Below are positions 8,976 to 10,986 of a stretch of 64,000 nt of DNA, in pieces. The stretch comes from Acidimicrobiales bacterium (lineage in GTDB: Bacteria > Actinomycetota > Acidimicrobiia > Acidimicrobiales > SZUA-35): NCBI GenBank assembly GCA_020630195.1, contig JAHDBV010000006.1, positions 1-64,000 of the forward strand. Reading direction: 5' to 3'. The notes under the pieces were generated by a model. It made no database searches. It was not told the DNA's origin and saw nothing but the letters and a program-made list of their open reading frames with translations. Made by a program: the position numbers and the translations under genes. Position 1 is the stretch's first letter. Each line of letters starts with the position of its first letter.

Positions 8976-10430
8976 ATGACCTCCGCGACTCCCGCCGTGC
9001 CGAGCCTCCCCGACGATGGCCTGGTGGCCGTCGTCAAGCGGGACTGTGCGACGTGTGAACTCGTCGTGCCCGTACTCGGCCAACTCGTCGAGGGCGACGG
9101 CCTCACGATCTGGGTGCAGGACGATCCGCTCTTCTGTTCCGACATCGGCTCGATCCACGATGCCGATCTCTCGGTCTCGTGGCATCACGACATCGAGACC
9201 GTGCCGACGCTGATCCGCCGTGAGGGTGGTGTCGAGACCGGACGGATCGTCGGGTGGAGCCGCGACGAGTGGCAGGCCTTCACCGGGGTCGACGACCTCG
9301 GACCGGGCCTCGCGTCGTTCCGACCGGGCTGTGGATCGCTGTCGGTCGACCCCTCGATGACCGACGAGCTCACCGTCCGGTTCTCGGGATCGTCGTTGCA
9401 CGCCCGCCGGATCGAACTCGCCGAACTCGAGGACGAGATGGAGACCGCCTTCGACCGGGGCTGGACCGACGGTCTCCCCGTGGTCCCCCCGACCGAGGCT
9501 CGCGTGCTCCGCATGCTCGAGGGCACGACACGGGCCCCCGACGAGATCGTGACGACCGTGCCCCCCGACCTGGTCGACGTCACCGTCGAACAGGTCGCGA
9601 TCAACGCGGTGATGGCCGGCTGCAAACCCGAGTACCTGCCCGTCGTGCTCGCGGCGGTCGAAGCGGCCTGCACCGACGAGTTCAACATGCACGGCCTGCT
9701 CGCCACGACCTACTTCTCCGGCCCGGTCGTGATCGTCAACGGGCCGATCGCCGAGCGGATCGGCATGAACTCGGGCAACAACGTGCTCGGCCAGGGCAAT
9801 CGGGCCAACGCCACGATCGGCCGGGCCCTCCAGCTCGTGGTGCGCAACCTCGGTGGCGGCAGGCCGGGCGGCGTCGACATGGGCATGCAGGGTGCGCCGT
9901 CGAAGCTCGGTTGGTCGTTCGCCGAGCGCGAGGCCGACTCCCCGTTCGAGCCGCTGTCGGTGGCCCGGGGCCTCGACCCCGGCGTCGACGCCGTGACCCT
10001 GTTCGCCGGTCAGGGTCCGATCCCGATCATCGACCAGCTGTCACGGACCCCCGAGTCGCTCACCCGGACCATCGCGGCGCTGCTGCTGGCGTACGGGCAC
10101 CCGAAGCTGATCATCGGGTTCGACTGCATCGTCGTGCTCTCCCCCGAACACGGCCGCATCTACCGCGAGGCCGGCTGGGACCGGGCCCGGGTGATGGCCG
10201 AGATCGAACCGCTGCTGGTGCGCGGCGGCGCCGACCTCGTCCGCGGTGCGGGCGGGATCGAGGAGGGGCTGCCGGCGGCCTTCGGCGAGGCCGATCTGCC
10301 GAAGTTCCGGCCCGGTGGCCTCCAGTTCGTGCACGCCGGAGGAGACGCCGGCTTGTTCTCGTCGATCATCGGTGGTTGGGTGAGTGGCGAGAAGGGTTCG
10401 GACCCGATCACCGTCGAGGTCCGTCCATGA
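8976..10430 (+). CDS. thioredoxin-like protein paired with the UGSC selenoprotein gene
   Basis: The product has about 484 residues. The N-terminus (residues 13-120) looks like a thioredoxin fold with a CATC redox motif at Cys24-Cys27 (VVKRDCATC), followed by acidic strands and a cis-Pro-like TVPTL. The larger C-terminal part contains WTDGLPVVPPTEARV, GCKPEYLPVV, GPIAERIGMNSGNN and LVVRNLGGGRPGG. I recognise this as the protein that accompanies UGSC genes but know no assigned reaction. The ATG at 8976 has GGAG upstream. The stop overlaps a 15-codon mini-ORF that ends at the start of the UGSC gene, so the three are probably one transcriptional and translational unit. A redox relay from CATC to the UGSC centre is inference. 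Confidence 0.8.
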   Translation: MTSATPAVPSLPDDGLVAVVKRDCATCELVVPVLGQLVEGDGLTIWVQDDPLFCSDIGSIHDADLSVSWHHDIETVPTLIRREGGVETGRIVGWSRDEWQAFTGVDDLGPGLASFRPGCGSLSVDPSMTDELTVRFSGSSLHARRIELAELEDEMETAFDRGWTDGLPVVPPTEARVLRMLEGTTRAPDEIVTTVPPDLVDVTVEQVAINAVMAGCKPEYLPVVLAAVEAACTDEFNMHGLLATTYFSGPVVIVNGPIAERIGMNSGNNVLGQGNRANATIGRALQLVVRNLGGGRPGGVDMGMQGAPSKLGWSFAEREADSPFEPLSVARGLDPGVDAVTLFAGQGPIPIIDQLSRTPESLTRTIAALLLAYGHPKLIIGFDCIVVLSPEHGRIYREAGWDRARVMAEIEPLLVRGGADLVRGAGGIEEGLPAAFGEADLPKFRPGGLQFVHAGGDAGLFSSIIGGWVSGEKGSDPITVEVRP

Positions 10431-10474
10431 GCGAGACCGACATCCACTTCCCCACCGAGAGCGAGGCGACATGA
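10427..10474 (+). CDS. 15-codon coupling mini-ORF between the thioredoxin-like and UGSC genes
   Basis: ATG at 10427 overlaps the upstream TGA (ATGA) and opens MSETDIHFPTESEAT. Its TGA at 10472-10474 in turn overlaps the ATG of the UGSC gene (ATGA). A reading frame this short, fitted by four-base overlaps at both ends, could hand ribosomes from one gene to the next. It may also be chance. No homology claim is possible at this length. Confidence 0.35.
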   Translation: MSETDIHFPTESEAT

Positions 10475-10986
10475 CCGTCGTGTTGGACCCCACCGCCGGA
10501 CGCGCGGCCGAGGGACTCGAGACCGTGGCCCGCCTCGACGCGCTCGACGGCAAGACCGTCGGACTGCTCGACATCTCGAAGCCCCGGGGCGACGTCTTCC
10601 TCGGACGGCTCGAGGAGCTGCTCACCGAGCGCGGAGCCACGGTGCACCGCTACATGAAGCCGACCTTCGCCAAGCCGGCACCGGTCGACCTGCGCCACGA
10701 GATCGCCACCAACTGCGATGCCGTGATCGAGGCACTCGCCGATTGAGGCTCGTGCACGTCGTGCAGTGTGCACGACATCACGGATCTCGAGCGTCGGGGT
10801 GTGCCCGGTGTGTTCGTCGCCTCGGCGGTCTTCGTCGACGCGGCCCAGACCCAGGGCGATGCGCTCGGGTTCCAGCCGGAACGTCTCTTCGTCGAACACC
10901 CGATCCAGGATCGGACCGACGAGGAGATGCGGGTGATCGCCGAACAGGCGGTCGACGCCCTCGTCGAGCGCCTCACCGCCGGCTGA
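10471..10986 (+). CDS. UGSC-family selenoprotein, TGA codon 92 read as selenocysteine
   Basis: Translation from the ATG at 10471 (GAGG 8 bases upstream) reaches TGA at 10744-10746, then continues in the same frame to a second TGA at 10984. This gives 171 residues with Sec92. The sequence around the codon is IEALAD-U-GSCTSCSVHD, exactly the U-G-S-C motif that names this family; homologues have Cys or Sec there. Before it are KTVGLLDISKPRGD and MKPTFAKP; after it are RRGVPGVFVAS, GFQPERLFVEHPIQ and EEMRVIAEQAVDAL, all typical of the family. A stem-loop at 10750-10775 is placed like a bacterial SECIS. Neither half makes sense alone, since the second has no upstream start. The function is unknown; a redox-active Sec/Cys site is likely. 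The rest of the selenium machinery must be encoded elsewhere. Confidence 0.88.
10750..10775 (+). promoter_or_regulatory. candidate bacterial SECIS stem-loop of the UGSC gene
   Basis: TCGTGCAC (10750-10757) pairs perfectly with GTGCACGA (10768-10775). The loop GTCGTGCAGT can tighten by two G-U pairs to a six-base apical loop containing G and U. The apical loop starts about 14 bases after the UGA and lies inside the coding frame, as required of SelB-dependent SECIS elements. There is no strict sequence consensus to test by eye. Confidence 0.6.

Follow-up and report, generated by a model that had tools for sequence, protein, structure and literature searches.

Background

The UGSC family of selenoproteins has been known since about 2008 (PMC2398784). 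An early survey placed its members among the thiol oxidoreductases, suggested a thioredoxin-like fold for them, and reported UGSC fused to a domain named Unknown_1 (PMC2398784). According to a passage in PMC5330540, a swap of the selenocysteine (Sec) codon to UAG in the Geodermatophilaceae, UGSC proteins included, had been published earlier. A literature search found no functional study of UGSC, and the papers that it returned hold no assignment of a partner, a fold or an electron donor to the family. In glycine reductase, one of the enzymes with a Sec subunit, thioredoxin serves as the electron donor.

The locus described here lies in the window, the whole 64,000-nt stretch of DNA that was analysed, and pairs a UGSC gene with a second gene, called the partner below. 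Its features are collected in Table 1.

Table 1. Positions of the features of the UGSC locus, numbered from the first letter of the window
Feature	Position	Strand	Basis
Partner gene, 484 aa, same strand, 40 nt upstream of UGSC	8976..10430	+	ORF list, homologues
C-A-T-C motif of the partner thioredoxin domain, residues 24-27	9045..9056	+	Homologues, profile, structure
Partner C-terminal domain, outside any Pfam or NCBIfam family	9402..10427	+	Kept in paralogues and fusions
UGSC-family selenoprotein gene, 171 residues, Sec at residue 92	10471..10986	+	Direct reading, profiles, homologues
TGA almost certainly read as Sec, in U-G-S-C-T-S-C	10744..10746	+	Codon identity in homologues, tRNA-Sec anticodons
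8-bp stem first proposed, conservation not above the level set by codon choice	10750..10775	+	Pairing in homologues
Conserved SECIS hairpin, GTCGTGCA - GTG - TGCACGAC	10758..10776	+	Pairing kept in homologues

The UGSC gene and its selenocysteine codon

Read directly, the UGSC frame runs from an ATG at 10471 through an in-frame TGA at 10744-10746 and on for 79 further codons to a TGA stop at 10984-10986, just as the original prediction had it. The four codons at 10744-10755, TGA GGC TCG TGC, give Sec followed by G-S-C, so the family motif recognised in that prediction is indeed there, and GSCTSC follows the internal TGA directly. Against UGSC_fam (NF041046; cut-off 125) the product of read-through reaches 156.4 bits, spanning positions 1-147 of the 147 in the profile, and against PF24696 (cut-off 25) it reaches 146.2 bits, with both halves of the gene covered. 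Since these scores lie above both cut-offs over both halves, the read-through frame is not a matter of chance. The fit claimed for either side of the TGA holds, and the gene is a further member of a family that, as had been stated, was already known and is now represented by these two curated models.

Two parts of the earlier description need amendment, the second being the stem-loop treated below. The downstream half was said to have no start of its own, and this is not strictly so: at 10768 a GTG in the same frame begins a mechanical ORF of 72 aa in it. That GTG is nevertheless the variable codon 100, which is V in the window and L or M in homologues, and it sits within the SECIS hairpin. 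It is what speaks for taking the TGA as a true stop, whether in a pseudogene, through a sequencing error or between two genes, a reading whose probability is close to nil and which the homologues have already refuted. Among 96 distinct homologues with the motif, the Sec codon is TGA in 94 and TAG in the other two, those of Geodermatophilus obscurus and Candidatus Blastococcus massiliensis, and the tRNA-Sec family genes of both these species carry a CTA (CUA) anticodon. This amounts to a natural experiment: because the TAG codon is matched by a CUA tRNA-Sec, the UGSC position is almost certainly Sec.

Other comparisons also argue against a stop. When the half 3' of the TGA is set beside a copy from the same genus (L038), the codon differences are 25 synonymous and 10 non-synonymous; judged from such counts, protein-level constraint acts on this half. 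UGSC proteins are encoded in 45 of the 61 related genomes, nearly all of the genes having exactly one internal TGA, and no relative has a decayed downstream half, the sign by which a true pseudogene was to have been recognised. Among the named loci retrieved by the partner protein, one has a Cys form and two have TAG at the Sec site; the others all have TGA there. Together with the SECIS under selection at synonymous sites and the Sec machinery of the genome (both described below), the codon conservation, the CUA tRNA-Sec and the second-half constraint bear out the central claim of a selenoprotein gene, and the TGA at 10744-10746 almost certainly encodes Sec.

Standard annotation was expected to split such genes, and a case in point is plasmid pFER4 of Paracoccus ferrooxidans, on which a UGSC gene that contains an internal TGA has been entered as two hypothetical proteins. 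Annotation should join the two halves of such genes, together with the SECIS, into a single gene.

The SECIS hairpin

Two overlapping 8-bp stems are possible 3' of the TGA, 10750-10757/10768-10775 and 10758-10765/10769-10776. The former is the perfect stem-loop to which the original prediction drew attention. It does exist, and a perfect stem at this place has a probability of 0.25 given the amino-acid sequence and random synonymous codons. Its pairing in homologues is 5.77 of 8 pairs against 6.21 expected, while for the latter stem the figure is 7.66 of 8, where 5.14 +/- 0.13 would be expected (96 distinct homologues); expected values come from synonymous codons drawn at random with codon usage taken from the window only, which makes the null approximate for other species. 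The stem first proposed is thus real as a structure and fails as a conserved element, a role that falls to the overlapping hairpin at 10758-10776.

In keeping with a bacterial SECIS, this hairpin follows an in-frame TGA and has a G opening its loop. The loop begins 20 nt 3' of the TGA and reads GTN in 96 of 96 homologues, and some of the stem pairs covary (G-C, G-U, A-U). Of the homologues, 86 have serine at the top of the stem, and every one of them encodes it by AGT, a codon that is rare in the window (1 of 151 serine codons, counted over seven of its genes). These patterns indicate that selection acts on the SECIS at synonymous sites of the UGSC gene.

Selenocysteine machinery of the genome

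The host genome is a draft, 82% complete. Its selA (392 bits) and selB (250 bits) genes adjoin on one contig (C113) and selD (354 bits) lies on another (C185), all three over cut-off; the SelD protein itself contains Sec (HGAGUACK). An Rfam covariance search of the genome returned tRNA-Ser and other tRNAs only, with no tRNA-Sec. In a DNA search, the complete tRNA-Sec region of a genome from the same genus matched the first 69 bases of a further contig (C64) at 93% identity. That contig holds the 5' part of a tRNA-Sec gene, including the TCA anticodon, with the gene cut at the contig end, and the covariance search missed it because the contig begins inside the gene. The genome check proposed for selA, selB, selD and a Sec tRNA thus comes out in favour of Sec coding, the tRNA being present as its 5' part.

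UGSC and tRNA-Sec tend to occur in the same genomes: over 61 related genomes, 38 have both, 13 have neither, 7 have UGSC only and 3 tRNA only (Fisher p 4e-6), a count that leaves out a 47-bit match in one genome (G021) taken as tRNA-Ser.

The partner gene

The start codon of the partner was picked by homologue comparison. Residues 1-105 match a thioredoxin fold with CxxC (profile E 4e-4), the structure of this N-terminal domain compares well with thioredoxin (Z 9.6, rmsd 2.3, 90 residues), and C24, T26 and C27 are each at least 90% conserved among 62 homologues. The C-terminal domain of about 340 aa returned nothing in Pfam or NCBIfam scans, and it lacks both a reliable structural match and a recognised cofactor signature. 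A weak Foldseek match to class I fumarase (7xky_A, E 1.9e-3, TM 0.22) was considered, and profiles lend a fumarase-like fold no support, the profile-profile score being no better than a reversed control. This domain needs a family model of its own. The Unknown_1 domain of the published fusion may be the partner reported here.

The pairing of the two proteins is consistent. When loci are retrieved by the UGSC family alone, 49 of 50 have a partner that lies beside UGSC or is fused to it, and the one exception lies at a contig edge. The reverse search, by partner alone, finds UGSC directly downstream in 68 of 80 loci from many phyla, and 9 of the 80 are without UGSC in the available sequence, some owing to a contig end. 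Three arrangements occur: partner-UGSC, as in the window, UGSC-partner, and single-chain fusions in either order. Among the fusions, some bear Sec (L050, which is in this genome at G000:C163, L053, L054, L065 and L066) and others are without TGA (L051 and L052). At least three UGSC genes are present in the host genome, namely that of the window, a UGSC-then-partner pair on contig C151 and the Sec-bearing fusion on C163.

At L102, L115, L142, L159, L162, L163, L164 and L171 the partner gene has no UGSC gene next to it, and since such loci exist the partner may act alone. In the window, a 15-codon frame at 10427-10474 extends from the partner stop (ATGA) to over the UGSC start (ATGA); it is likely due to chance, because the copy from the same genus has another spacing, of about 31 nt.

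Annotated plasmid loci that carry the partner number 17, mostly with Cys-type and divergent UGSC copies, and seven of them also have thioredoxin-reductase-like genes. One such locus, on an Arthrobacter plasmid, reads trxB-trxA-partner-UGSC, with the thioredoxin separate there and fused to the partner in the window. The window locus has no trxB or transporter adjacent, and plasmid TrxB queries gave no match in the 80 named loci, so that trxB linkage appears confined to plasmid loci of divergent copies. Arthrobacter and Natrinema plasmids also carry genes of the ComA family (phosphosulfolactate synthase) close to the module (L209, L212).

Predicted fold and a possible distant link to GrdB and PrdB

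The AlphaFold2 model of UGSC (mean pLDDT 91.9) has five strands alternating with helices, and in it Sec92 follows strand 84-90 and precedes helix 93-108. The order of strands and helices in this predicted model departs from that of a thioredoxin fold. Contrary to the published thioredoxin-like suggestion, UGSC is thus confidently modelled as a (beta-alpha)5 protein.

Foldseek and VIA lists for the model hold common Rossmann-like arrangements and name no function; the best structural matches are scattered over receiver-like, LacI-like and cobalamin-binding folds with no shared chemistry. Such scatter would suit an accessory or regulatory protein of the partner enzyme, with Sec as a metal or thiol sensor. 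This is improbable, as Sec, the most reactive choice, is strongly retained across phyla, even with a TAG codon, which argues for catalysis.

The GrdF profile is matched by 37 and the GrdB profile by 34 of 66 UGSC proteins in the region around Sec (best E 8e-6), and when hhalign sets UGSC against GrdB-like selenoproteins from the same order, Sec falls on Sec (P 4.3e-5, prob 69%; reversed control 0.71). The similarity spans about 60 residues and is far under the curated GrdB cut-offs, at 20 bits against 602 for TIGR01917 and 16 against 65 for TIGR01918. Weak but consistent, it suggests a distant link of UGSC to GrdB/PrdB and not membership.

The host genome also has about three short GrdB/PrdB-like genes (PF07355 matches at G000:C2:48169-48549, G000:C142:65790-66221 and G000:C24:33500-33730). 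One of these, L185, reads through TGA as VPV-U-PVC and is of another known selenoprotein type, which relatives also have.

A proposed mechanism

On balance, we lean towards the view that the locus encodes a two-protein, thioredoxin-driven, GrdB-like redox or reductase module that acts on a small carboxylate. The UGSC selenoprotein would be made through SelB-dependent reading of the UGA at 10744. Electrons would pass from NADPH by way of thioredoxin reductase to the thioredoxin cysteines C24-C27 of the partner, which would in turn reduce a Sec92-Cys95 (or Cys98) bond in UGSC. The free Sec92 selenolate, at the helix start after a beta strand, would then attack a small carboxylic substrate bound where UGSC meets the partner C-terminal domain, and the selenolate would be regenerated by Cys. 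GrdB and PrdB, which are themselves Sec subunits, use chemistry of this kind. Several observations weigh against the module as proposed: the GrdB similarity is short and under the cut-offs, the window locus has no neighbouring trxB or transporter, the plasmid neighbours come mostly with Cys-type and divergent copies, some partner genes stand without UGSC, and the partner C-terminal domain resembles no known structure reliably. A carboxylate is proposed because the neighbours in plasmid loci include LysR regulators, TRAP and tripartite tricarboxylate transporters, CoA transferases and members of the PEP mutase family.

The Sec protein and its partner could instead form an antioxidant enzyme, such as a peroxidase or a disulfide or methionine-sulfoxide reductase, and not a catabolic one. 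UxxC with a thioredoxin donor is the usual build of such enzymes, and UGSC has been grouped with thiol oxidoreductases of thioredoxin-like fold (PMC2398784). We regard this as unlikely, given that the predicted fold is (beta-alpha)5 and not thioredoxin, and that genomes carry several paralogous modules whose partners differ from one module to the next, which suggests different substrates; so do the transporter, CoA transferase and LysR neighbours.

Beyond the catabolic reductase module favoured for this locus, a broader and more tentative proposal is that thioredoxin-driven reductases could include a widespread class, as yet undescribed, in which UGSC proteins are the Sec subunits. This class would be distantly akin to GrdB/PrdB, would have a partner domain outside Pfam and NCBIfam, and would serve carboxylate catabolism in bacteria and haloarchaea, with several split and fused modules per Acidimicrobiia genome. 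Given a consistent partner that brings its own electron donor, a fold, and a distant relative whose chemistry is known, a protein of 'unknown function' becomes a testable enzyme.

Comparison with known systems

The GrdB, GrdF, GrdH and PrdB-like proteins (TIGR01917, TIGR01918, PF07355) have U-x-x-C(-x-x-C) after a hydrophobic strand, as does UGSC. That said, UGSC has 171 aa and is without the remainder of GrdB. GrdB and PrdB have a pyruvoyl subunit (GrdE or PrdA), whereas the UGSC partner is without any Pfam or NCBIfam match and none of the GrdE/PrdA type was seen. A further difference is that UGSC has hosts among the Acidimicrobiia and proteobacteria that are not known to carry out Stickland fermentation.

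The Sec-UAG selenoproteins of the Geodermatophilaceae include a UGSC protein of the same type with the Sec position kept, although TAG and a CUA tRNA-Sec are used there and TGA in the window. With the published UGSC family itself (NF041046, PF24696; PMC2398784) the window gene shares a full-length match, U-G-S-C, and TGA with a SECIS; the fold was guessed to be thioredoxin-like and is (beta-alpha)5 in the present model. To this known family the analysis adds the partner, the predicted (beta-alpha)5 fold, the suggested distant link to GrdB, and the trxB-like genes of the plasmid loci.
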